Shown here in pieces: positions 27,997-40,603 of a stretch of DNA of 42,965 nt. The stretch's first letter is position 1. Each line of letters starts with the position of its first letter. The translations under genes were made by a program, and so were the position numbers. Under the pieces are notes generated by a model. That model was not told the origin of the DNA, searched no databases, and saw nothing but the letters and a program-made list of their open reading frames with translations. The stretch comes from Bacteroidota bacterium (GTDB lineage: Bacteria > Bacteroidota > Ignavibacteria > Ignavibacteriales > Ignavibacteriaceae): NCBI GenBank assembly GCA_021813585.1, contig JAKAJV010000107.1, positions 1 to 42,965 on the forward strand, written 5' to 3'.

Positions 27997-29127
27997 TTAT
28001 TCTAATCTTTTTCTGAATCTTAACGCGCTGGCAAAAAGTATAACCACGCCGATTAATAACAATATCAGGAACTCGGGCATCAGCTCTGCAAAGGAAGCGC
28101 CCTTAAGAATAACGCCGCGCAGAATAATAATAAAATATCTTACGGGAACAAGGTATGAAATATACTGCAGTATTACCGGCATATTCTCTATGGGGAATGC
28201 AAAGCCGGAGAGGTAAAGCATAGGCATCATAATACCGAACTGCGCAACCATCATTGCCTGCTGCTGGGTCTTGGAGATTGTAGAGATAAAGAGGCCAATA
28301 CCTAAAGTAGAAAGGACAAAGACAAATGATGCAGCCAGCAGAAAGACAAAGCTGCCTCTAATCCCGATCCCGAACCAAAAGACCATTACTCCGAGAACAA
28401 TCAGCGCATCCATAAATCCTATTATAACAAAAGGGATCATCTTACCAACGACAAGCTGCATAGGTTTAATAGGAGTTACAATCAACTGCTCTAGAGTTCC
28501 CACCTCCCGTTCTTTAACAATTGCCATCGACATGAGTATGGTAGTGATTATTGCGAGTATTAACCCCGTGATGCTCGGAACCATGAATACTCTTGTCTTT
28601 AATTCCGGGTTATACCAGACGCGCACTTCCGGAACAAGGCTGCCTGCTGGGGAAATCTTTCTCCCGGTTTTATCTGCAAGCTGCAGCATAATATTTTTGG
28701 AATAGTTGGAAATAATACCCTGTACGTAACCCATAGCTATCGATGCTTTGTTTCCGTCCGAGCCGTCAAAAATTGCCTGTACCTGTGCGGTTTGCATACG
28801 GTTGATATTTTTCTCAAAGTCTTTTGGAATAACCAACGCCCAGAGCACCTTGTTATCGTTTATGTCGGTATTAACCTGCCGGTAATTATCAACGTAGTCG
28901 TCAATTTTAAAATAGCCGGAATGCTCAAACCTCTGAATCAAATTCCTGCTTGCAGCCGATTTGTCTTGATCGTATACTGCCGTATGAACGGTATTAACAT
29001 CCATGTTGGCTGCATATCCCAGAATAATAAGCTGGAACACCGGTGCAATAAAAACCACTGCGAAAAGCCGCGGGTCTCTCTTCAACTGAAGAAATTCTTT
29101 TACTATTATGCTTAATATTATTTTCAT
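27997..29127 (-). CDS. ABC-2 type efflux permease (YbhR-like), last gene of operon
   Basis: The 376-residue protein has an N-terminal membrane helix (about 20-38), a periplasmic domain of about 130 residues, and five or six helices from residue 175. The intracellular coupling segment MAIVKEREVGTLEQLIVTP is the hallmark of ABC-2 permeases of the YhhJ/YbhR/YbhS group. It shares length, layout and motifs with the upstream gene, so the two permeases probably form the heterodimeric membrane channel. The gap to the upstream permease is 29 nt. Substrate is unknown; the group exports drugs or other hydrophobic molecules. Confidence 0.9.
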   Translation of the reverse strand: MKIILSIIVKEFLQLKRDPRLFAVVFIAPVFQLIILGYAANMDVNTVHTAVYDQDKSAASRNLIQRFEHSGYFKIDDYVDNYRQVNTDINDNKVLWALVIPKDFEKNINRMQTAQVQAIFDGSDGNKASIAMGYVQGIISNYSKNIMLQLADKTGRKISPAGSLVPEVRVWYNPELKTRVFMVPSITGLILAIITTILMSMAIVKEREVGTLEQLIVTPIKPMQLVVGKMIPFVIIGFMDALIVLGVMVFWFGIGIRGSFVFLLAASFVFVLSTLGIGLFISTISKTQQQAMMVAQFGIMMPMLYLSGFAFPIENMPVILQYISYLVPVRYFIIILRGVILKGASFAELMPEFLILLLIGVVILFASALRFRKRLE

Positions 29128-29156
29128 GTTCGTCCTGAGAATAAGTTACTGCTGCG

Positions 29157-30287
29157 TTATGCTGTCCTAGAACGTTTATTAATAATAGCCGAGAGCAAGA
29201 GTAAAACCAGGGAAAAGATTATTAGGTAAACCAACTGTGGCCAGAACGCATCTATGCCGACTCCCTTCAGAAGTATATCCCTGAGAATAATCATAAAGAA
29301 TTTTGCCGGAGTAATATTTGTTATTATTTGTATTGCTCGCGGCATGCTTTCGATTGGGAAAACGAATCCCGACAAGAGCATTGAAGGAAGCATCGATATA
29401 AGAGTAGCCATCTGGAATGCGACCTGCTGGGTATCTGCAATGCTTGAGACAATTATTCCAATGTTCAGCGATGCGAACAAAAACAAAAGCATAGAAAAGA
29501 ATAAGAGTATGATGCTGCCTTTAATTACTATACCGAACAACACATAGCCGGCTACTAAAATAAAGGCAGCTATTATAAGCGAGATAATTACGTACGGTAT
29601 AGTCTTACCGATCAGCATTTCCAGCGACGTAAGAGGCGATACGTTCAATTGCTCAATTGTGCCTCTTTCCTTTTCTCTTACGATCGAAAGTGAAATTGAA
29701 ACAACAGCGGTAATTATTAATATCATTACTATTAGTCCCGGCACAAGAAAGAAAGACGATACGAGCTCCGGATTAAACCAGAAGGTCGGGTGAACCTCAA
29801 TCGGTATATAGGCGTTCCTTCCTCTTAGAGCAAGTACTTTGCTCTGCACCTGCTGGGAATAAGAGGCAACCGCCAAAGTAAGGTAGCTGTTTATTATCGA
29901 GGCAGTGTTTGCATCAACACCGTCTATTAAAATTTGTACCGGTGCATTTTGGTTGGAATAAAGCAGCTGCGACATGTTGTGCGGAAATACTACTACGCAT
30001 TGTGCTTTCTTTGTATCCAGGATGTCTCTTATATCGCTTTGATTATTTATATAACCGACGAGATCGAAATACTCCGAACTGGTTAAAGCATTAATAAATT
30101 TTCTGCTGTCGGGAGATTTGTCCTGGTCGTACACCGCCATTTTAATATGGTGTACATCGAAGTTAATTGCATAGCCGAAGATGACAAGTAGAATTACAGG
30201 GAAAATAAAAAGCACATAGAGCATCCTCTTGTCTCTCTTTAGCTGCCTAATTTCTTTTTTAGCTACCGCCTTAATTCTGTTAAGCAT
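29157..30287 (-). CDS. ABC-2 type efflux permease (YbhS-like)
   Basis: This is a paralogue of the following gene, also 376 residues: N-terminal helix (about 24-43), periplasmic domain with VYDQDKSPDSRKFIN, then five or six helices. SIVREKERGTIEQLNVSP is the ABC-2 coupling helix. Its start overlaps the end of the upstream ATPase gene by 8 bp, which suggests coupled, balanced synthesis of ATPase and permease. Confidence 0.9.
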   Translation of the reverse strand: MLNRIKAVAKKEIRQLKRDKRMLYVLFIFPVILLVIFGYAINFDVHHIKMAVYDQDKSPDSRKFINALTSSEYFDLVGYINNQSDIRDILDTKKAQCVVVFPHNMSQLLYSNQNAPVQILIDGVDANTASIINSYLTLAVASYSQQVQSKVLALRGRNAYIPIEVHPTFWFNPELVSSFFLVPGLIVMILIITAVVSISLSIVREKERGTIEQLNVSPLTSLEMLIGKTIPYVIISLIIAAFILVAGYVLFGIVIKGSIILLFFSMLLFLFASLNIGIIVSSIADTQQVAFQMATLISMLPSMLLSGFVFPIESMPRAIQIITNITPAKFFMIILRDILLKGVGIDAFWPQLVYLIIFSLVLLLLSAIINKRSRTA

Positions 30288-31218
30288 TTTTTTTCAAATC
30301 CTTTTCGAGCAAATAAATAAAAACGTCCTCCAGTGTTGGAATTATTTTATCGATCCTTAATACATTAACCGAATTATCTTCGGTAAGAACTTTTTTGATA
30401 AGCGCCCGGCCCTGGCTTTCATCTTTAACGTTAACGTGGATATAATTCCCGAAGATGGATGTCTCTTCAATCCATTTCTCCCTTGATAGTATATCTAGTG
30501 AGTCAACAACCCGGTCGCATTCAACTTCCAGAATTGTATTGGTAAGGTACTTAGTCTTTAATTCTTTCGAGCTTCCGCTTGCAATAATATTGCCTGCATT
30601 TATAAGAGTAATGTTATTGCAGAACTCCGCTTCGTCCAGGTAGTGTGTTGTAACAAAAACGGTAACACCGTTCTGAGAAAGCTCATTTATAAGGTCCCAG
30701 AAATTCCTTCTGGAAATCGGGTCAACACCGCCCGTAGGCTCATCTAGAAAGACAATTTTAGGCTCGTGTATAACGGCTATGGCCAAAGCAAGGCGCTGCT
30801 TTATTCCTCCGGGCAAGGAGGCTGTCAGCAGCTTCTCCTTCCCTTCCAGGTAAGCAACTTTAAGCACCCACTTCTTTCTTTCCTTAAGCTTTGAGTTGTA
30901 CAGGCCGTACACTCCGCCGAAAAAATTTATATTCTCCTCTACTGTTAAATCGTTATATAGAGAGAAGCGCTGGGACATATATCCGATATTGGCTTTAACT
31001 TTGTCCGGCTCGTTCATAACGCTAAAGCCGCCCACCAGTGCGTCGCCGGCAGTAGGCTCAAGAATTCCGCAAAGCATTTTTATCGCGGTCGATTTACCGG
31101 CTCCGTTCGCACCGAGGAACCCGAATATCTCACCCTGGTTAACATTGAATGAAATTCCGTTTACCGCAGTAAAGCCGCCGAATTTCTTTACAAGATTATT
31201 TACTTCAATTGAGTACAT
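30280..31218 (-). CDS. ABC transporter ATPase with LPGG signature (second of operon)
   Basis: The 312-residue ATPase has Walker A GANGAGKST (36-44), Q-loop Gln83, signature LPGGIKQR (135-142), Walker B FLDEP with Glu160, and the H-loop VTTHYLDEAE with His192. The signature has Pro in place of the usual Ser, as in the C-terminal ATPase of E. coli YbhF. The rest of the catalytic set is complete. Residues 215-312 form the C-terminal extension of drug-export ATPases. It should pair with the ATPase encoded at 32681-33601 and energise the two permeases. Confidence 0.92.
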   Translation of the reverse strand: MYSIEVNNLVKKFGGFTAVNGISFNVNQGEIFGFLGANGAGKSTAIKMLCGILEPTAGDALVGGFSVMNEPDKVKANIGYMSQRFSLYNDLTVEENINFFGGVYGLYNSKLKERKKWVLKVAYLEGKEKLLTASLPGGIKQRLALAIAVIHEPKIVFLDEPTGGVDPISRRNFWDLINELSQNGVTVFVTTHYLDEAEFCNNITLINAGNIIASGSSKELKTKYLTNTILEVECDRVVDSLDILSREKWIEETSIFGNYIHVNVKDESQGRALIKKVLTEDNSVNVLRIDKIIPTLEDVFIYLLEKDLKKNA

Positions 31219-31293
31219 TATGCACCGAATAATTAACAGTATGATTATTGATTAATCTCTTAACAGTATCTTTTCCACCGGCTTCATAAAAAA

Positions 31294-32607
31294 TCAATAG
31301 ATTTTCTTTCCGACCGATTTATCAAGCCGGACCTTTGCCAATTCATATTCGACAAGTGAATTGTTGTAGTTTGTTTTAGCCTGCAGAAGCGCCGTTTCCG
31401 CATCGATTAAATCGGTGCTGGAAGCAACCTGCGTATCGTATTTCTCTTTTATAGTGCGGTAGTTTTCTTCGGCCTGCTCTACACCAAGCTTTGCTACGTT
31501 TACTTTATCATACCCTCTGTTAAAGGCCAGATAGTTTTGATAAACCTCTATCTCAATAGCATCCTTAAGCTGGGCCAATGAAGTTTCTGCCTGGACTTTA
31601 TTTTGTTCCGCTATTGTCGTCTGCGAAGAAGTATAGCCCCAGTTCCACAGGCTCCACTGCAGGGTTACTCCTAAATCCCACGTATCTTTAAACTCATTAA
31701 CTGCGGGGATAATCCTTGAGTTCGGCTTGTTGTAATAATAATCGCCGATTAGATATACCGAAGGGAACCAGCCGGACCTGGCCGCTGTAATTCCGTCGTC
31801 GCTTGCCATTACCCGGAACTTTAACGATTTGTATTCGTTCCTATTGTTCTTGGCTTCGCTTATCAAATCGTTCAAGTTGTAGGTCGATTTTTCCGCACGG
31901 ATTTCCTTGACTTCAATTCCCGTTGCGGCCTCTAGAGGCAGGCCGATAGCCTGGTTGAAGGCGGCCCTGGCAATATCCAGATTATTTTCCGCTTCAATCT
32001 TCTGGAGCTTTATACTGGAAGCTTGCACTTCGAGCTTCAGCAAATCATTTTCAGTTGCCAGCCCGTTTGCTAAAAAATTCTTCGTGTCTTCTAGATGCTG
32101 GTTTATCTGCTGCAGATTCTCGTTAATTACTTTTTCATTTAACTCGGCCCTGTAATAGTTCCAAAACGCATTTTGAATCTTTAATGCCGCGTCGTTCATA
32201 GCGCTGCTTAAATCCGATTGAGATGCGTCGTAATTCCAATTAGCGGCATTTTTAAGCGATACCAGCCTTAGCCCCGTAAATATGGGCTGCTGAAGAGACA
32301 GCTTAAGAGAATAGTTATCCAGAATTACCGGCGATATCTGGATAGGTTTTGGAAAAATGGGCAATGAGACTTCGAACGGAGGGATATTGCTGAGCCTTAT
32401 GTAGCTGGCACTAAAACCAAGCTGGGGCATAAGCTGCGAGCCGGCAGAAGTAATCTGTGCTTCCGCGCCGATTACCTTTGACCGGGAAATTTTAAGCTCG
32501 TTGCTGTTCCTTAATCCTATCTCAAGACTTTCGGATAACGTAAGCTTTTTAGTTTGTCCGTACAGCCCGGCCGCTGCCAAAAGTACAACCAATATTAATT
32601 TTCTCAT
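31294..32607 (-). CDS. TolC-family outer-membrane efflux channel
   Basis: The 437-residue protein has a signal peptide (MRKLILVVLLAAAGLYGQ) and two repeats of the outer-membrane efflux protein fold: LTLSESLEIGLRNSNELKIS at the start of repeat 1 and a corresponding NLNDLISEAKNNRNEYKSLK before repeat 2. Long coiled-coil helices are seen at about 150-215 and 330-425. It forms a trimeric channel through the outer membrane and its periplasmic tunnel. Its position between the two ATPase genes of one exporter makes it the dedicated exit duct (inference). Gaps are 75 nt downstream and 73 nt upstream. Confidence 0.92.
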   Translation of the reverse strand: MRKLILVVLLAAAGLYGQTKKLTLSESLEIGLRNSNELKISRSKVIGAEAQITSAGSQLMPQLGFSASYIRLSNIPPFEVSLPIFPKPIQISPVILDNYSLKLSLQQPIFTGLRLVSLKNAANWNYDASQSDLSSAMNDAALKIQNAFWNYYRAELNEKVINENLQQINQHLEDTKNFLANGLATENDLLKLEVQASSIKLQKIEAENNLDIARAAFNQAIGLPLEAATGIEVKEIRAEKSTYNLNDLISEAKNNRNEYKSLKFRVMASDDGITAARSGWFPSVYLIGDYYYNKPNSRIIPAVNEFKDTWDLGVTLQWSLWNWGYTSSQTTIAEQNKVQAETSLAQLKDAIEIEVYQNYLAFNRGYDKVNVAKLGVEQAEENYRTIKEKYDTQVASSTDLIDAETALLQAKTNYNNSLVEYELAKVRLDKSVGKKIY

Positions 32608-32680
32608 TTCAAATCCTCTGTGTTTTACCAGTTAAAAGAAACTTCGTTCGGTTTATTTTGAAATTTACTTACATGCCGTT

Positions 32681-33601
32681 TTATTTCGACGATGATTCGT
32701 TAATCAAATGAATAAAAACATTTTCAAGTGAAATAGGTATTACCCTGTGGTCCGCAAGCTGAATTCCGTTTTCGGCCAGCAGTCTAACTATAACATCAAT
32801 GTCGTTCTGATAATCGCTTACGGCAACATTAAGCCGGTCGCCGAACATCTGGACTTCATAATTGCTTTTTTCTTTAAGCAAGTTATATGCGCTTATAATA
32901 GGCGCACACACAATTTCAACTATGGTTGTTTGAACCGAGGCTTTTATATTTTTAGGAGTATCGAAGCTCATAACTTTGCCGTTGTTCAGCAGGGCAACCC
33001 TATTGCACCGCTCAGCCTCATCCAGGTAAGGCGTCGACATGAATATCGTTACTCCGTCTTTAATAAGATTGGACAGAATCTTCCAGAAGTCCCGGCGAGA
33101 AACCGGATCAACCCCGGTAGTCGGCTCGTCAAGAAAAATAATCTTCGGCTTGTGAATAAGCGTGCATGCAAGGGCTAGCTTCTGCTTCATTCCGCCGGAG
33201 AGATTATCTGCAAGCCTTGTTCTAAACGGAGTAAGCCTTGTGAACTCTAGTAATTCGTTCCTGCGGGTTTTATAATCTTTAACTCCGTGCAGGTCTGCAA
33301 AGAACTCTATATTCTCATCAATGGTTAAATCGCCGTACAAACTGAATTTTTGCGAAAGGTAGCCGATCTGCTTTTGTATTTTTACTTTTTCCTTCACTAG
33401 ATCCATGCCGAATATTTCTGCGCTTCCTTCCGTAGGAGAAAGAAGTCCGCAGAGTAATCTTATCGTAGTAGTCTTGCCTGCACCGTCGGGGCCTACCAGC
33501 CCGAACATTTCCGCAGGCTTTACATCAAAGGAAATCCCGTTCAGCGCTCTTACCTCACCGTAGTCCTTAACTATTCCGTTAGCCTTTATTGCCGTTTCCA
33601 T
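32681..33601 (-). CDS. ABC transporter ATPase with H-loop proline (first of operon)
   Basis: The 306-residue ATPase has Walker A GPDGAGKTT (37-45), Q-loop Gln84, a canonical LSGGMKQK signature (134-141) and Walker B FLDEP with Glu159. The H-loop reads FMSTPYLDEAE, with Pro191 where active ATPases have His. It corresponds to the N-terminal half of E. coli YbhF. The defect is complementary to the LPGG signature of the other ATPase, so both defects fall in the same composite ATP site of the heterodimer. Confidence 0.92.
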   Translation of the reverse strand: METAIKANGIVKDYGEVRALNGISFDVKPAEMFGLVGPDGAGKTTTIRLLCGLLSPTEGSAEIFGMDLVKEKVKIQKQIGYLSQKFSLYGDLTIDENIEFFADLHGVKDYKTRRNELLEFTRLTPFRTRLADNLSGGMKQKLALACTLIHKPKIIFLDEPTTGVDPVSRRDFWKILSNLIKDGVTIFMSTPYLDEAERCNRVALLNNGKVMSFDTPKNIKASVQTTIVEIVCAPIISAYNLLKEKSNYEVQMFGDRLNVAVSDYQNDIDVIVRLLAENGIQLADHRVIPISLENVFIHLINESSSK

Positions 33602-33663
33602 TTCTTCCCGATGAAAAATTGATGTTGTATTTTTTAAAATTTAAGATTTATTTCTTCTATCAA

Positions 33664-33694
33664 CATCGCTGAAATTATAATTCAGCATCGCTGA
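33664..33694. repeat. CATCGCTGA direct repeat upstream of the first ATPase gene
   Basis: CATCGCTGA occurs at 33664-33672 and 33686-33694, a 22-bp period (about two helical turns). Between them AATTATAATT makes a partial inverted repeat with the first copy. It sits in the 105-bp gap between the fusion-protein gene and the ATPase gene, the widest gap of the operon, and could be an operator or an RNA processing site. Confidence 0.4.
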
Positions 33695-33706
33695 TAATTT
33701 TTTAAA

Positions 33707-34672
33707 TTACAATTTTATAACGGCGTCCGCAGGCATGCCGTCTTTAAGATCGAAATTAGGATTATGTATATGAATTTTTACCGCGTATACAAGCTTAGTC
33801 CTTTCGTCCTTGGTTTGAATATTCTTCGGCGTAAACTCTGCTGAAGGCGAAATATAAATTACCCTGCCGTTGTATGTTTTATCCTTAAATGAATCTACGG
33901 TAACAACTGCTTGCTGGCCAAGCTTAATTTTTCCAAGCTGAGTTTCAGGAATGTATATTTCAAGATCGACGTAACTTAAATTCGACAGTATTACAAGCGA
34001 AGACAACGGGGCAACGCTTTCGCCGGCCTCAACAATCTTTTTAACTACAAAACCGCTTATCGGCGCAGTTACGTAGGAATCGCTTATGTTCTTCTTCAAC
34101 AGATCCACTGCCGCAGCCTGCCGGTTGTAATTCGCTTCCGCCTGCTTAATCTCTTCGGGCCTGGCAAGATTTTTAAGCTTCTTTAAATTTTCCTGTGCGG
34201 AATTCAATTGAGCTTTGGCTATATCATATTTTGCCGCAGCGTCATCGTATTGCTGCTTTGTAATAGACTTGGCTTTATAAAGCCGTTCTATCCTCTCGTT
34301 GTTAGTAGATGCAAGATCGAAATTCGCCTTGGCCTGTATCACCGCGTCCTGAGCCTGCCTTAAATCTTCTTTCCGCGCACCCTGTATTAACAGAGCGAGC
34401 TGTGCTTTAGCCGCTTCCGCGCCCGCCTCAGCCTGTTTAAGCTGAATTGACAGCAGGTCGTGGTCAATCGTCATTAAAGTATCGCCTGCCTTTACAAGAT
34501 CGCCTTCGTGAAAAAATAATTTTGTTACCTGACCGCTAACTTTAGAACTCACCGTTACGTTAGTCGCATCAATTGTACCCGATGCCTCTATTTTATTTTT
34601 ATTATTTCCGTTTCCGCAGCCAATTATAAAACCGATAACCAAAAGGGAAAGGAACACATTTAATGCTCTCAT
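33707..34672 (-). CDS. HlyD-family membrane-fusion lipoprotein (YbhG-like)
   Basis: The 321-residue protein has a lipoprotein signal with lipobox IIGC (Cys19). It then shows the biotinyl-lipoyl half GTIDATNVTVSSKVSGQV, a long helical hairpin (about 75-195, rich in Ala, Gln and Lys), the second lipoyl half VTAPISGFVVKKIVEAGESV, and a beta-barrel region to residue 300. It bridges the inner-membrane ABC exporter and the TolC-type channel. The lipid anchor replaces the transmembrane helix of E. coli YbhG. Its start overlaps the stop of the TetR gene by 4 bp. Confidence 0.93.
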   Translation of the reverse strand: MRALNVFLSLLVIGFIIGCGNGNNKNKIEASGTIDATNVTVSSKVSGQVTKLFFHEGDLVKAGDTLMTIDHDLLSIQLKQAEAGAEAAKAQLALLIQGARKEDLRQAQDAVIQAKANFDLASTNNERIERLYKAKSITKQQYDDAAAKYDIAKAQLNSAQENLKKLKNLARPEEIKQAEANYNRQAAAVDLLKKNISDSYVTAPISGFVVKKIVEAGESVAPLSSLVILSNLSYVDLEIYIPETQLGKIKLGQQAVVTVDSFKDKTYNGRVIYISPSAEFTPKNIQTKDERTKLVYAVKIHIHNPNFDLKDGMPADAVIKL

Positions 34673-35280
34673 TTGTCAGCTCCGTAATTAAGTTTATTAA
34701 AAATCTTTTTGCCTTTTTCCGTTAATATGCCGTTCATTAAAATTTTAATAGCGCCCTTTAATGCCTCCAGCATAGTAAAGCGATTATTGATAATAAAGTC
34801 GGGATTAACTACCGCCCTAACAGAAGCAATGAACACAGTGATTAGGATTTCCGGCCTGTCTTTCAAAAAGTAACCTTCCTTCTGGCCCTGCGTAATTATA
34901 TTCGTAAGGAAGGATGTCATCTTCTTTGTCCTGTAATCATCTATTTCTTTCCAGCGCTCTGGGGAGTAATGGTGAATGTCGCTCAGCATCCTGTCGTTAA
35001 CCCTAGACACTATACCGCCTACAACCTCGAATATTCTTACAAGCTTCTCGACTGCATTACATTTAACATTTATAACTTCCTCAATCCTCCGGGCGTTTTC
35101 GTTCAAGAAACATTTTGCAACAGCTTTTACAAGCTCTTCTTTAGAAGAAAAGTTCCTATAGATTGTTTTTTTGCTAACATGCATCTCGGCGGCAATTTCG
35201 TCAATGGTAGTCTTATAGAAACCTCCCAGTAGAAATTTTTGCGAAGCAAAGCTTATAATCTTTTCTTTTTCTTCATTCAT
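34669..35280 (-). CDS. TetR/AcrR-family regulator, probable repressor of the efflux operon
   Basis: The N-terminal DNA-binding domain reads FLLGGFYKTTIDEIAAEMHV then SKKTIYRNFSSKEELVKAV, a classic TetR helix-turn-helix. The C-terminal ~140 residues form a helical ligand-binding domain. The frame is open to a TTG at 35322, but that codon overlaps the -10 region of a strong promoter candidate and would lie upstream of the RNA start, so translation must begin later. I choose ATG 35280 (203 residues); ATG 35292 (207 residues) is nearly as good. It overlaps the fusion-protein gene by 4 bp and leads the operon. In E. coli the related TetR protein CecR controls ybhGFSR, so autoregulation of this exporter is likely. 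Confidence 0.9.
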   Translation of the reverse strand: MNEEKEKIISFASQKFLLGGFYKTTIDEIAAEMHVSKKTIYRNFSSKEELVKAVAKCFLNENARRIEEVINVKCNAVEKLVRIFEVVGGIVSRVNDRMLSDIHHYSPERWKEIDDYRTKKMTSFLTNIITQGQKEGYFLKDRPEILITVFIASVRAVVNPDFIINNRFTMLEALKGAIKILMNGILTEKGKKIFNKLNYGADK

Positions 35281-35292
35281 ATTGAGTACCAT

Positions 35293-35370
35293 GGAAACTA
35301 TTATTGTACTTTTCGTTTCCAAACATAATGCATGGATACTCTTTTGTCAAGTCATAGTTTCCGGGGAAAC
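35293..35370. promoter_or_regulatory. Four GTTTCC/GGAAAC half-sites around the tetR promoter (putative operator)
   Basis: GTTTCC-GG-GGAAAC (35357-35370) lies just upstream of the -35 box. A second pair, GGAAAC (35293-35298) and GTTTCC (35315-35320), lies at and after the expected RNA start. Three of the four carry the longer TAGTTTCC or AGTTTCC form. TetR proteins bind inverted repeats over their own promoters, so this is the expected place for autoregulation. Confidence 0.6.
35320..35350 (-). promoter_or_regulatory. Promoter of the tetR-efflux operon
   Basis: On the minus strand a perfect TTGACA (35350-35345) is followed after exactly 17 nt by TATGTTTG (35327-35320). This fits both a sigma-70-type -10 and the Bacteroidota TAnnTTTG element. 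Transcription would start near 35313-35316. Confidence 0.75.
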
Positions 35371-35431: not shown

Positions 35432-36397
35432 TTATTTTGCAATTGAAGAGATAATATCGGAAAGGTTACCTTCGCTGCCTTCGTTAAACCAGCTTTCAAC
35501 AAGACGGAATGAGATTGACACACTGAACGGGAGTTTTAAAGAATTTTCCTTAAGTCCGGAGATAATTTCTTTTCTAGTAAACCACCGGGCATCTTCAAGC
35601 TCGTTATCGTGTAGAGTTATATTCATGCTCTTTGCAGTTGCCCTGAAGCCGAGCATAATAGCTGATGGAAACGGCCAGGGCTGAGACGAAAGGTACCTTA
35701 TCTTATCAAGCTCTACGCCTGTTTCTTCATGCACCTCCCGGGCAACGGCCTGTTCTAAGCTTTCGCCCGGTTCTACAAATCCCGCGATTGTTGCATATTG
35801 CCGGGGTACCCACTTAGCCTGCCTGGCAAGAAGACATTTATCGCCGATGCTTACCAGCACTATAATTGCCGGGTCGGTCCTCGGGAAATGTTCGGTGCCG
35901 CATTGCTTATTGCTGCAAATTAGTTTATGGCCGGCTTCGCCGGAAACAGTAGAACTACCACATACACCACAGTAGCGATTATTATCATGCCAGATTATCA
36001 TCGCTCTTGCATAAGCCAGCAGAGCCGCATCCTTCCGGCTTAGCAACGGGGCAATTCCCCTCAGTTCCATAAATTCTCCGTAAGCAGCCAGCAAGTTCTT
36101 TTTTATATCCTCTTCGTTCATCTTAACACAAAAATAGTTTTCTCCTTCAACTTCGCCGAGATATATAAAGTTATCTTGCAGGGCAAGGATGCTGCTAAAT
36201 AACTCCGGTCTAAAAAAAGCAACTTCACCTGAATCTTCTTTTGATATAGGAAATTTTTGTTTATAAACCGGAATTATAAATGCTTCGTTCCCACATAAAC
36301 TGTTTTTTATCCACGTACTGTCCGAACGTTTTAAGCTGTTTCGGTTAAGCTTTTCGTAAATAAAAAAATTGTTAAGGGATAAATTTTTGTCATCCAT
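35432..36397 (-). CDS. nudC: NAD+ diphosphatase / RNA deNADding enzyme
   Basis: NudC splits NAD(H) to NMN(H) and AMP and removes NAD caps from RNA 5' ends. The 321-residue protein has an N-terminal domain, a zinc ribbon (CGVCGSSTV ... CSNKQCG), PRTDPAIIVLV, the Nudix box GFVEPGESLEQAVAREVHEE, and the NudC-specific SQPWPFPSAIMLGF. All catalytic Glu residues are present. Length is somewhat above E. coli NudC owing to a longer N-terminus. It follows the chagasin-like gene by 14 nt on the same strand, and the tetR promoter region lies about 60 bp beyond its end. Confidence 0.95.
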   Translation of the reverse strand: MDDKNLSLNNFFIYEKLNRNSLKRSDSTWIKNSLCGNEAFIIPVYKQKFPISKEDSGEVAFFRPELFSSILALQDNFIYLGEVEGENYFCVKMNEEDIKKNLLAAYGEFMELRGIAPLLSRKDAALLAYARAMIIWHDNNRYCGVCGSSTVSGEAGHKLICSNKQCGTEHFPRTDPAIIVLVSIGDKCLLARQAKWVPRQYATIAGFVEPGESLEQAVAREVHEETGVELDKIRYLSSQPWPFPSAIMLGFRATAKSMNITLHDNELEDARWFTRKEIISGLKENSLKLPFSVSISFRLVESWFNEGSEGNLSDIISSIAK

Positions 36398-36411: not shown

Positions 36412-37422
36412 TTAATAAACAACTATTTTAAATTCAATTTTCTTTGCAGGCTGTTTATCTTTTTCCCAGGGTCTTACATATTCTAAGGCTACCGCAGTTT
36501 CGCCTTTGCTTAGCGTAATAAAATTCCAGTTCTCGGTTCCGCCGGAACCCGGCAAATTAGAATTGCCCGGCAAGTATTGTTTTGACAGCAGGCGAATAAT
36601 CCGATCGTTAAACGAATTTGCCGGTTCCCATTCATAGCCTGTCGTCCTATTCGAGCTAAGCGAAATCGAAAAGCTTTTTCCGGCTTTCACTTTAATTTCT
36701 TTCGAACCGTTTGTATAAGCGTTTTCAATCGCCTCTCCGCTGTTCGTATCTTTTGTTTTTATAACATTTACAACTTTAGAGCCAATGTATCTTCCATCCT
36801 TATTAAAATAAAAATCAACATTAGCCAGTCCAAGTAACATGCAAGCATGGCAGCCGTTCCTAAGCCGGTAAACAAACGTAAATATCTGGCCGCCGCCCGT
36901 ACCTGAATTTACAACCGGGTAATCGGTACCCGACCTGTCGCCCGGCCAAATGCTGATATCGGAATATTTATTTTTTAATTCTTTGTATGTTTCGTTTTTT
37001 TCCAGCGCAAATGTCTTCATTATTTTGTAATCGTCTACGTCAATCATATCTGGACTGCCGTTAACAAGAAAGCAGAGTTGATTTTCATTGGCTCTAAAAG
37101 GATAAAACGCATAAGCAACATCCACCCTGCCGGTTTCTTTAAAGTCCCTTAAATAGCCGTCGTTCTTTGTCATCTTAATAAAAGCAAGAGCATCTGCAGA
37201 TGCGCCGGCTTTTTTTGCTTCGGCCCAAAAGCATTCTCCAAAGTCGGGATATTCCTTCTTGCCGCATTCGTTGCGAATATCCTGCATAATAGACATACCG
37301 GGTTCCCACACGGCCTTTGAGCTAATCCGGAAAATCTTATTTGGCTCTTCATTATTAGTTTGAGCTTTGGCTACAAAGGAAAAACAAATTAAGAAGTATA
37401 TTATTGCGTTAGCTTGTTTCAT
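36412..37422 (-). CDS. Secreted two-domain protein: unknown five-Cys domain + chagasin-like inhibitor (I42)
   Basis: The 336-residue protein has a signal peptide (to about AKAQ, residue 21). Residues 30-225 form a domain I do not recognise, with Cys53, 64, 117, 191 and 194, the last two in NGCHACMLLG. Residues 245-336 match the chagasin family of cysteine-peptidase inhibitors: loop NRTTGY (258-263, consensus NPTTGY), GSGG (292-295, consensus GxGG) and RPW (317-319). All three inhibitory loops are intact. The protein should be periplasmic or exported. It is a paralogue of the next gene upstream (gap 62 nt) and precedes nudC by 14 nt. Its peptidase target, if any, is unknown. Confidence 0.78.
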   Translation of the reverse strand: MKQANAIIYFLICFSFVAKAQTNNEEPNKIFRISSKAVWEPGMSIMQDIRNECGKKEYPDFGECFWAEAKKAGASADALAFIKMTKNDGYLRDFKETGRVDVAYAFYPFRANENQLCFLVNGSPDMIDVDDYKIMKTFALEKNETYKELKNKYSDISIWPGDRSGTDYPVVNSGTGGGQIFTFVYRLRNGCHACMLLGLANVDFYFNKDGRYIGSKVVNVIKTKDTNSGEAIENAYTNGSKEIKVKAGKSFSISLSSNRTTGYEWEPANSFNDRIIRLLSKQYLPGNSNLPGSGGTENWNFITLSKGETAVALEYVRPWEKDKQPAKKIEFKIVVY

Positions 37423-37484
37423 AATTGCCTTGTTAAAAAAAATTCAAACAACCGGTTAACGATCCCGGAAACTCTCCGGGCCTG

Positions 37485-38507
37485 CTATTTAACGTTTACA
37501 GTGAAAGAATATTTTTCAAAGCTTTTTAATCCTTCGCCAAAGCTTTGTACGTAATTAAATTCTATTTTGGTTGTGCCTCTGCCTGCGGCTTTGAAATACC
37601 AGACTTCCTTGCCCGGCGCATTCGGCAGGGTTTCAACCGGTCTTACAAAGTCAGTCCCGGTTAAAGAAACTATTTGATTATCCAGCGGTGCGGCCATGTT
37701 CCATTTAAATCCGGCCGAATGATTTGAGATCAATACGATTGAAAATTTATCCCCGGTTCTAACTTCTACCGGCTGGGAAGGATCGCTGTAATAATTTGTA
37801 CTATAACCGCCCGTTGCAGCTTGTTCGCCTGTATCAACTGTTTTTTTAAGACTTAGGAACTTGCATCCCAGAAAATTTCCCGTGCTGTCAAAATCAAAAC
37901 CGAACTCGGCAAAGCCCAAAAGCTCGCAAGTGCTGCAGCCGTTTTTCAGGCCGTAGTTAACCACTACCCGGTTCTCTTTTTTAGGAAGCTCAATGTTATA
38001 CGGATATACGGTATTTTTCCTTTCATCGGGGAACAGCGCCACGTTAGTGTATGTCTTTATTAATTCCATATACCCTTTGTCGGATTCCAAATCGTTTAAC
38101 GGAAGCAAACTGAAATCGTCAATGTTTATAAGGCCGGGATTGCCGTTTACTATTAAACAGCCCTCATGGTTATTGCCCCGCAAAGGATAATAAACGAAGG
38201 CGGCATCTACGCTGCCCAGATTTTTAAAGCCGTTCATATAAGCATCATTATTCATTTGCGCGGTAAATTCTAGAGCTTGCTGAGAAGCTCCGGACTCTTG
38301 CATAACCTTGATAAAGCAATTCTTCAAATCGGTACCTGTGTAGCTGCCGCAATTTTCACTCAGCTTTTCCATTACAGCCATATCCGGGTTCCAGATAGAC
38401 TTGGCTGTTATAATTTTAGCTGCGGTTTGGGAATAAGTAAGCTGAGAAGATAAAAAAGACACCGCTAAACAGATTAAAACAAACGAAACGATTCTCTGCT
38501 TTTTCAT
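37485..38507 (-). CDS. Paralogue of the chagasin-like two-domain protein, inhibitor loops eroded
   Basis: The 340-residue protein has a signal peptide (to about TYSQ, residue 27). The N-terminal domain aligns with the downstream paralogue without drift: Cys53, 64, 117, 191 and 194 have identical residue numbers, and shared segments include SIWNPDM, CLIVNGNPGLINIDDF and NGCSTCELLGFA. There is an extra Cys215. The C-terminal domain keeps the fold pattern, but the loops read NHSAGF for NPTTGY, NAPGK for GxGG and VQSFGEG for the RPW region, so cysteine-peptidase inhibition is doubtful. The gap to the oligopeptidase B gene upstream on the plus-coordinate side is 62 nt. Confidence 0.75.
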   Translation of the reverse strand: MKKQRIVSFVLICLAVSFLSSQLTYSQTAAKIITAKSIWNPDMAVMEKLSENCGSYTGTDLKNCFIKVMQESGASQQALEFTAQMNNDAYMNGFKNLGSVDAAFVYYPLRGNNHEGCLIVNGNPGLINIDDFSLLPLNDLESDKGYMELIKTYTNVALFPDERKNTVYPYNIELPKKENRVVVNYGLKNGCSTCELLGFAEFGFDFDSTGNFLGCKFLSLKKTVDTGEQAATGGYSTNYYSDPSQPVEVRTGDKFSIVLISNHSAGFKWNMAAPLDNQIVSLTGTDFVRPVETLPNAPGKEVWYFKAAGRGTTKIEFNYVQSFGEGLKSFEKYSFTVNVK

Positions 38508-38569: not shown

Positions 38570-40603
38570 CTATTTGTTTATCCCAAGCTGATCTAAGATA
38601 AAGCTGTATTCAAGCGCGATGAGTTTAAACTGCTCGAACCTTCCCGAAGCGCCGCCATGCCCTGCGGACATATTGGTATTTAAGATCAGAAGATTATTAT
38701 TCGTTTTCATTTCGCGCAGCTTAGCTACCCACTTTGCCGGCTCCCAGTATTGAACCTGGGAATCGTTCAGAGCTGTCGACACAAACATCGCGGGATAATC
38801 CTGCTTCGAAACATTGTCATAGGGAGAATACGAAAGGATGTAATCATAATAAATCTTTTCGTTCGGATTGCCCCACTCATCATATTCGCCGGTTGTAAGA
38901 GGAATATTTTCGTCGAGCATTGTAGTAAGCACATCAACGAAAGGAACAGCAGCAATAATTCCTTTGAATAAATCCGGCCGCATATTAGATACAGCGCCCA
39001 TAAGCAAGCCGCCCGCGCTGCCTCCTATCGCGAACAATTTTTCCTTTGCGGTATAATTGTTTTCGATCAGGAACTCGGCGCAAGCTATAAAATCGGTGAA
39101 TGTATTTCTCTTCCTTAGCAGCTTTCCGTCCTCGTACCATCGTCTTCCCATTTCCTGTCCGCCCCTTATATGGGCAATTGCAAATACAACGCCTCTATCC
39201 AGCAGACTGAGTCTTGCGGAATTAAAGCCGGGGTCGTTGCTTATTCCGTACGCGCCGTACCCGTTCAGCAGAAAGGGATTCGGCTTGTTTTTTTCAATAC
39301 CTTTCTTATAGACGATCGAGATCGGAATTCTCGTGCCGTCCGGTGCTACTGCATATACTCTTTCTGAATGATATTCATTTTGGTTAAACCCGCCGAGAAC
39401 TTCCTCACGCTTTAATAATTTTTCTTTACGCCCGGCCATATCGTAATCATACGTGGAAACCGGAGTTGTTAACGAGTTGTAAACGAACCGCAGCTCGCGG
39501 GAATTAAATTCCGGATTTTTAGAAACGTAGATTGTATATGTATCTTCACTGAACTTTATATACTCTCCGGCGAAATCATTCCAGTTGACAATCTTCAGTT
39601 TTTTTAGTCCGTCTTCCCTTTCCTGAATTACGAGGTAGTCTTTAAATATTTCAATTCCCTCAAGCAGAATATTTTCCCTGTGCGGAATTACTTCTTCCCA
39701 ATTATCTTTTGTAGTCCGCTCAACCGGGGTTCTCATAAGCCGGAAATTTTTTGCTTTGAAATTTGTAGTTATGTAGAAGTGATCTTCGAAATGATCGATG
39801 TAATATTCCAAGTCCTTTTCGCGTTCGTGAAATATTATAAATTCACCCGAAGGCCGACCGGCATCTAAAAATCTGTATTCGTTCGATAAAGTGTTGTAAG
39901 AACCAATGATTATAAATCTGGACGACTTGGTTTTGAAAACGTATGTTCCGAAAGTTTCGTCATCCTCATGATATACCTCTTCGTCGTTAGCTGCGCCAAG
40001 GGTATGCTTAAATATTTTATAAGGACGCAGAGTCCGGTCTTTCTGAGAATAAAAGATAGTCCGGCAATCATTTGCCCAGACGAGATTGCCGGAGGTTCCG
40101 GGAATTTTATCGGGCAAAAGTATATTGTCTGCTAAGTCCTTAAAATAAATTTCGTACTGCCTTCTTCCGTTTGTATCAACGCAATAAGCCAGAATTTTGT
40201 TATCGGGACTTACATTTAAACCTATCACATTAAAAAATTCAAATCCTTCTGCAATCTCATTTACATTAAGGATAATCTCTTCACTGGCTTCAAGACTTTC
40301 TTTCTTGCGGCAATATAAAGGGTACTCGTTTCCCTTTTCAAACCGGTGATAATAATAATATCCGTTTTCAAGATAAGGCACCGAGCTGTCCTCCTGCTTT
40401 ATACGGCCAACCATTTCATCATACAAAGCTCCCCGCAGATTTTCAGTATGCTTCATTGCAGAGGCAGTGTATTTGTTTTCGGCATTTAAATATTCAATTA
40501 CCCCGGGATCTGTCTTATCGCTTAACCAGAAATAATTATCTATCCTTACGTGGTTATGACTCTTTAATTCTTTTTTTATTCTATTGGCTTTGGGAGGCTT
40601 CAT
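38570..40603 (-). CDS. ptrB: Oligopeptidase B (prolyl-oligopeptidase family S9)
   Basis: Oligopeptidase B cleaves short peptides after Lys or Arg. The 677-residue protein has the N-terminal segment RIKKELKSHNHVRIDNYFWL of the family, a seven-bladed propeller (about 75-400), and a C-terminal alpha/beta hydrolase with nucleophile GGSAGG (Ser529), Asp614 in LNDSQVQYWEP and His649 in SAGHGG. LNGYGAYGIS and HIRGGQEMGRRWYEDGK are also typical. There is no signal peptide, so it is cytoplasmic like E. coli PtrB. It lies upstream of the two secreted chagasin-like genes on the same strand, but a physical interaction is unlikely because of location and mechanism. Confidence 0.93.
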   Translation of the reverse strand: MKPPKANRIKKELKSHNHVRIDNYFWLSDKTDPGVIEYLNAENKYTASAMKHTENLRGALYDEMVGRIKQEDSSVPYLENGYYYYHRFEKGNEYPLYCRKKESLEASEEIILNVNEIAEGFEFFNVIGLNVSPDNKILAYCVDTNGRRQYEIYFKDLADNILLPDKIPGTSGNLVWANDCRTIFYSQKDRTLRPYKIFKHTLGAANDEEVYHEDDETFGTYVFKTKSSRFIIIGSYNTLSNEYRFLDAGRPSGEFIIFHEREKDLEYYIDHFEDHFYITTNFKAKNFRLMRTPVERTTKDNWEEVIPHRENILLEGIEIFKDYLVIQEREDGLKKLKIVNWNDFAGEYIKFSEDTYTIYVSKNPEFNSRELRFVYNSLTTPVSTYDYDMAGRKEKLLKREEVLGGFNQNEYHSERVYAVAPDGTRIPISIVYKKGIEKNKPNPFLLNGYGAYGISNDPGFNSARLSLLDRGVVFAIAHIRGGQEMGRRWYEDGKLLRKRNTFTDFIACAEFLIENNYTAKEKLFAIGGSAGGLLMGAVSNMRPDLFKGIIAAVPFVDVLTTMLDENIPLTTGEYDEWGNPNEKIYYDYILSYSPYDNVSKQDYPAMFVSTALNDSQVQYWEPAKWVAKLREMKTNNNLLILNTNMSAGHGGASGRFEQFKLIALEYSFILDQLGINK

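Follow-up and report, generated by a model that had tools for sequence, protein, structure and literature searches.

Chagasin and the related ICP proteins (Pfam PF09394) are inhibitors whose canonical loops L2, L4 and L6 carry the motifs NPTTG, GxGG and RPW. The solved chains matched in this work, among them T. cruzi chagasin (2nnr) and P. aeruginosa ICP (2wgn), consist of 105–132 residues. Wild-type chagasin inhibits cruzipain and cathepsin L with Ki values of 7.6 and 7.3 pM, respectively (PMC2607524 Table 2). A bacterial example is Cip1, a secreted chagasin-like protein of P. syringae that has a putative signal peptide, carries the motifs NPTTG, GxGG and RPW and inhibits papain-like proteases of tomato (PMC5014320). 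From the absence of C1A enzymes in most Pseudomonas genomes, the same article argues that Pseudomonas chagasins target foreign proteases, and its discussion states that a role for bacterial chagasins had yet to be elucidated (PMC5014320).

Here we describe a pair of genes from a 42,965-nucleotide stretch of an Ignavibacteriaceae genome (the window). The two proteins, UP (the 5′ copy) and DN (the 3′ copy), each have a domain of ~200 residues (the N-domain) preceding a chagasin-like inhibitor domain (I42). The matched solved chains are much shorter, and Cip1, which came from a screen of small secreted proteins, is described in the available part of PMC5014320 without an N-terminal domain. We propose, with a probability of roughly 60%, that UP and DN are exported inhibitors of C1A peptidases carried on an N-terminal module, and that the UP type is an old, divergent and maintained paralogue. 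What is new is the domain family joined to the inhibitor and the pair of paralogues, the inhibitor itself being of a known kind; among the papers listed in literature searches, no title or abstract beginning mentioned an N-domain fused to a chagasin. The pair presents a chagasin inhibitor as one of two domains, and the variants found in nature, which have the inhibitor, lack it or carry altered loops, make the role of each half directly testable. It also adds an uncatalogued, probably exported domain family whose members were seen in metagenome-assembled genomes (MAGs) from three or more phyla (Ignavibacteria/Bacteroidota, Acidobacteriota and Thermodesulfobacteriota).

Architecture of the gene pair

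Both genes are on the minus strand in the same orientation, with DN following UP after 62 bp (Table 1). Their products are 32% identical (108/341, E = 2e-68) over an alignment that covers nearly their full length, which bears out the preliminary description of the pair as tandem paralogues. A hydrophobic N-terminal stretch in each protein reads by eye as a signal peptide, and residues 2–19 of UP form a helix in the full-length UP model. Both proteins are probably secreted. UP and DN are the only matches in this genome to the I42 family and likewise the only matches to the N-domain.

Table 1 Features of the UP/DN locus, in coordinates of the window.
Feature	Position	Strand	Basis or remark
nudC-like gene (NUDIX, NUDIX-like, zinc ribbon)	35432..36397	(-)	14 bp after DN
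DN gene (3′ copy)	36412..37422	(-)	336 aa; signal-peptide-like start + N-domain + I42
DN I42 (chagasin) domain	36424..36690	(-)	Pfam; match to solved structures
DN loop L6, RPW	36466..36474	(-)	pairwise alignment, loop comparison
DN loop L4, GSGG	36538..36549	(-)	pairwise alignment, loop comparison
DN loop L2, NRTTGY	36634..36651	(-)	pairwise alignment, loop comparison
DN N-domain, ~residues 30–222	36757..37335	(-)	40-member alignment; model pLDDT 91.9
DN NGCHAC motif (Cys191, Cys194)	36841..36858	(-)	turn between two long strands of model
UP gene (5′ copy)	37485..38507	(-)	340 aa; signal-peptide-like start + N-domain + I42
UP I42 domain	37494..37763	(-)	Pfam; models as chagasin
UP loop L6, QSF	37539..37547	(-)	pairwise alignment, loop comparison
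UP loop L4, NAPG	37611..37622	(-)	pairwise alignment, loop comparison
UP loop L2, NHSAGF	37707..37724	(-)	pairwise alignment, loop comparison
UP N-domain, ~residues 28–222	37842..38426	(-)	40-member alignment; UP model
UP NGCSTC motif (Cys191, Cys194)	37926..37943	(-)	sequence, UP model, conservation
S9 prolyl-oligopeptidase-family gene	38570..40603	(-)	62 bp before UP

The Pfam family Inhibitor_I42 (PF09394) matches both C-termini, with E-values of 4.1e-25 and 7e-18; the scores, 88.3 and 65.2 bits, exceed the curated cut-off of 27.2. Among solved structures, the DN domain was matched by sequence to the ICP of P. aeruginosa (E = 1.3e-13) and to chagasin (E = 1.2e-9), and the best match of the UP domain to a solved inhibitor had an E-value of 1.3e-4. 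Structure prediction was carried out for full-length UP and for the DN N-domain. The UP model (pLDDT 89.2, pTM 0.71) placed residues 236–340 onto chagasin 2nnr with Z = 13.0 and an rmsd of 1.9 over 102 aligned residues, and the best Foldseek match of the UP model was EhICP2 (E = 6e-8). The chagasin fold that had been assigned to both C-termini by inspection is thus upheld by the model for UP, the divergent copy, and by sequence for DN. By analogy with chagasin, the C-terminal domain would be a reversible inhibitor of papain-type (C1A) peptidases that covers the active-site cleft with L2, L4 and L6 and is not itself cut.

The inhibitor loops of UP and DN

The loop motifs given in the preliminary description (NRTTGY, GSGG and RPW in DN; NHSAGF, APGK and QSFGEG in UP) are all present. 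Compared with the canonical NPTTG, GxGG and RPW, DN keeps every motif residue save for a P to R change in L2, whereas UP, which shares the predicted fold, has the altered loops NHSAG, NAPG and QSF. Four fusions of the DN type read N[R/P/A/T][T/S]TG[Y/F] in L2, G[S/A/R]GG in L4 and R[P/S]W in L6, and on these motifs DN would be a canonical C1A inhibitor. The four proteins of the UP type, from four genomes, read NHSAG[F/L] in L2, with its length unchanged, and NA[A/P]G in L4; their L6 sequences are QSF, RDW, YSW and YSW, so that only the UP protein of the window lacks the L6 tryptophan. The UP-type loops are thus a shared alternative set.

To compare the two halves of the proteins, we counted invariant alignment columns. 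In the UP type (n = 4), 38 of 94 I42 columns and 56 of 190 N-domain columns are invariant (Fisher p = 0.08), and mean pairwise identity is 57.6% in I42 against 50.4% in the N-domain. The corresponding counts in the DN type are 28/87 and 59/190 (p = 0.89). Values of pN are well below pS in all twelve pairs of the two types (0.14–0.33 against 0.68–0.86 in the six UP I42 pairs), pS being mostly saturated. This conservation, without sign of decay, suggests that the inhibitor parts of UP and DN are both maintained. The initial contrast between intact DN loops and eroded UP loops is not supported: erosion was rejected as the best reading of UP because L2 and a nearly identical L4 are common to four genomes and conservation in the I42 domain is no lower than in the N-domain. 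The same observations, together with the L6 tryptophan in three of the four proteins, make it improbable that UP is a decaying copy or a receptor form that no longer inhibits, although that account would explain the NAPG in place of GxGG, the QSF in place of RPW in the window's copy and the lower scores of the UP domain against solved inhibitors.

Chagasin variants give an indication of how such loops might behave. UP L2 carries S and A at the places of chagasin T31 and T32. The single substitutions T31S (Ki of 11 and 4.9 pM for cruzipain and cathepsin L, respectively) and T32A (16 and 14 pM) remain in the picomolar range (PMC2607524 Table 2). The T31A/T32A double variant loses 140-fold in affinity for cruzipain and nothing for cathepsin L, deletion of T31–T32 is severe for both enzymes, and W93A loses ~100-fold for cathepsin L and ~4-fold for cruzipain (PMC2607524). 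The variants in the available part of PMC2607524 include neither the UP-like S/A double change nor the L4 changes of UP, and for this reason activity of UP is a prediction. Because UP is an old paralogue whose distinct loops are conserved, it should still bind a peptidase, with a different specificity.

The N-domain is an uncatalogued family

The preliminary description could not assign the region of ~200 residues in front of the inhibitor. Profile searches now agree: neither UP and DN nor any of the 40 distinct members of the N-domain alignment passed a Pfam or NCBIfam cut-off in this region, and no match of any weight to a characterised family emerged from Pfam, NCBIfam or PDB sequences. The best Pfam E-value among the 40 members was 0.15, with each family matched in one member only. 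The best NCBIfam match (E = 0.0026, in L021_DN) scored 16.6 bits against a cut-off of 428, and the one nearest its own cut-off was the NMCC_0638 lipoprotein family in L051 (14.2 versus 28). The family profile found no match among PDB sequences, and a profile of two sequences only one, at E = 1.5. With 40 distinct members aligned, 29 of them lacking I42, the N-domain is a real family that also occurs alone. A PADLOC match to a type I specificity subunit model (E = 0.032; one match) was taken as chance, as was the similarity of DN residues 85–202 to a secreted cathepsin L (E = 0.22), which was absent with family profiles.

The family is sparsely distributed. It was found in 10 of 164 genomes of the order, all within one genus of 68; in 14 of 391 genomes and 3 of 190 genera of the class, one of the 14 being a 41-residue match only; and in 3 of 395 genomes of an evenly drawn phylum sample, one of them a 36-residue match only. 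In genome_contigs, 33 of 75 pattern-matched stretches encoded relatives, a lower bound as the scan requires a conserved peptide. By title, the records of the relatives are Bacteroidetes, Ignavibacteria, several Acidobacteriota, Geobacteraceae and Solidesulfovibrio, with a fragment in Planctomycetota; the titles also mark them as MAGs, so some placements may reflect binning errors. Among viral contigs, 148 pattern-matched stretches yielded no relatives and the viral model search gave no match at E ≤ 0.001, and the three plasmid records that matched did so through the I42 part only. Stand-alone N-domain genes in Sulfotelmatobacter MAGs (L049, L050 and L052–L056) lie near recurrent gene clusters; in L049, the cluster representatives that were scanned encode a sortase, a carbonic anhydrase, a bestrophin-like protein and a weakly DUF2911-like protein.

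Cysteines lie at positions 53, 64, 117, 191 and 194 in both UP and DN, as first noted. The accompanying proposal that all five are constrained was ruled out, since position 117 is a cysteine in only 16 of 40 members. Cys64 is kept in 39/40, and W39, C53, Y185, G190, C191, C194 and F206 are conserved in 40/40, indicating that the N-domain is really a four-cysteine and not a five-cysteine domain. In the predicted secondary structure, C53 and C64 are located in two successive helices and C191 and C194 in a turn between two long strands. Additional cysteines occur in the signal-peptide-like stretch of both proteins (Cys13) and in UP (Cys215). The member least like DN (L073 1465–2196; 25% identity) lacks Cys64 and has Cys53, 191 and 194.

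An AlphaFold2 model of the DN N-domain alone, built from 40 aligned sequences, had a mean pLDDT of 91.9 and a pTM of 0.87, and consists of helices followed by an α/β part with long strands. Foldseek against the PDB gave no match at E ≤ 0.001, the best being the SnoaL-like 3dxo at E = 0.021. SnoaL/NTF2-like and cystatin-like folds were compared as structural candidates. VIA gave Z ≤ 5.5, within the range that the tool's notes call common (for 4ccv, Z = 5.3 and an rmsd of 4.1 over 98 aligned residues), with residues 1–54 barely tested. Foldseek and VIA thus yield no family for this model, from which a new fold does not follow. The N-domain would be a compact, cysteine-bearing module with a function of its own, which would most likely be to bind a partner or a surface and thereby position the inhibitor. 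A bolder version, in which this undescribed exported family has a conserved four-cysteine CxxC core and the UP-type chagasin has been retuned beyond the usual C1A targets, for instance towards a peptidase of neighbouring microbes, appears rather improbable.

Origin of the two types

Two separate clades emerge in the N-domain tree, one of UP types from four genomes (support 100/99) and one of DN types from eight (99/94); their grouping as sisters is weakly supported (82/58). Both types stand in tandem in the window and in genome G012. It follows that UP and DN types predate the divergence of these species. The duplication proposed at the outset is the simplest source of the two types and fits their separate clades as an old event; the sister branch lends it little, the division into intact and eroded copies that went with it is not supported, and separate arrival of the two types is possible.

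The DN-clade proteins of G013, G014, G019 and G020 lack I42 and form a group (98/82) that adjoins one with I42, within a clade whose remaining members carry this domain. No I42 match was found genome-wide in these four genomes. A single loss of I42 in this group is the simplest reading; the I42 label requires four changes on the whole N-domain tree, and change counts cannot separate gain from loss. A split inhibitor gene was rejected as the explanation of the stand-alone N-domains, there being no I42 in the four genomes and no further I42 open reading frame in the scanned loci.

The fusion of N-domain and I42 recurs in a Pyrinomonadaceae MAG (L034) and in two Geobacteraceae MAGs (L037 and L038), the latter with two neighbouring gene clusters in common. 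When 21 I42 domains were placed in a tree, those from fusions fell to the same side of a weakly supported branch (61/29), so that a single origin of the fusion is possible. L034 has an insertion in the alignment around L6, where its sequence, as judged by eye, may be disturbed. G015, the genome with L024, also contains at a contig end the start of another DN-type gene of high similarity (L025 3608–4018), either an assembly artefact or a copy of recent origin.

Single-domain chagasins of the same order (L077, L084–L088, L091 and L092) share the I42 domain with UP and DN and have starts that look exported or lipoprotein-like by eye. They differ in being open frames of 132–160 aa from genomes in which no N-domain was found. 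Six of the eight form a clade of their own in the I42 tree. L2 of L085, L086, L087, L088, L091 and L092 reads ADAGY in four and LDAGC and GSAGY in the rest, and their L4 lacks GxGG; these small I42 proteins thus have a further divergent set of loops.

Putative targets and gene neighbourhood

The genome of the window has one C1-family match, an exported-looking papain-family protein with a Por_Secre_tail domain, that is, a type IX secretion tail (L100 1324–3615, contig C88 of G000). It is a possible endogenous target. Within the genus, a C1 match was present in 4 of 6 I42-bearing genomes and in 4 of 7 that lack I42 (Fisher p = 1.0), some assemblies being incomplete and G022, with a sub-cut-off C1 fragment, being counted as having no match. 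C1 matches thus do not track I42, a link between inhibitor and target by co-occurrence was rejected, and an endogenous target is possible but not indicated. Alternatively, UP and DN could act on foreign proteases, as argued for the Pseudomonas chagasins (PMC5014320). Inhibition by UP of the adjacent S9 peptidase was also considered and rejected: the S9 protein of the window starts without an evident signal peptide, as judged by eye, so the two proteins are probably in different compartments.

A survey of gene neighbourhoods across the family's loci revealed that the nudC-like gene directly follows in 6 of the 7 DN-clade loci whose next gene is visible, 20 bp after L024 and with a 1-bp overlap in the four stand-alone N-domain loci; the call rests on Pfam for the window's gene and on blastp clustering elsewhere. 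The S9 peptidase gene precedes UP in 3 of 4 UP loci. This arrangement bears on an account in which the N-domain is the working part, I42 is an accessory gained and lost by lineages, and the main role is not protease inhibition. The many members without I42, the four DN-clade genomes that keep the N-domain gene overlapping its nudC-like neighbour in the absence of any I42, and the recurrence of that neighbour all speak for it. Against it, the DN types that have I42 keep near-canonical L2, L4 and L6 in 4/4, and among the clustered loci the nudC-like neighbour is limited to this genus. We consider it unlikely, though the most serious competitor to exported inhibitors placed by their N-terminal module.

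Further downstream, the minus strand of the window carries a co-directional run at 27997–35322 that reads by eye as a TetR-type regulator, an HlyD-like protein, two ABC ATPases, a TolC-like protein and two ABC permeases, the TetR domain having been scanned only in the G012 homologue. Much of this run recurs beside N-domain genes in several genomes of the genus.
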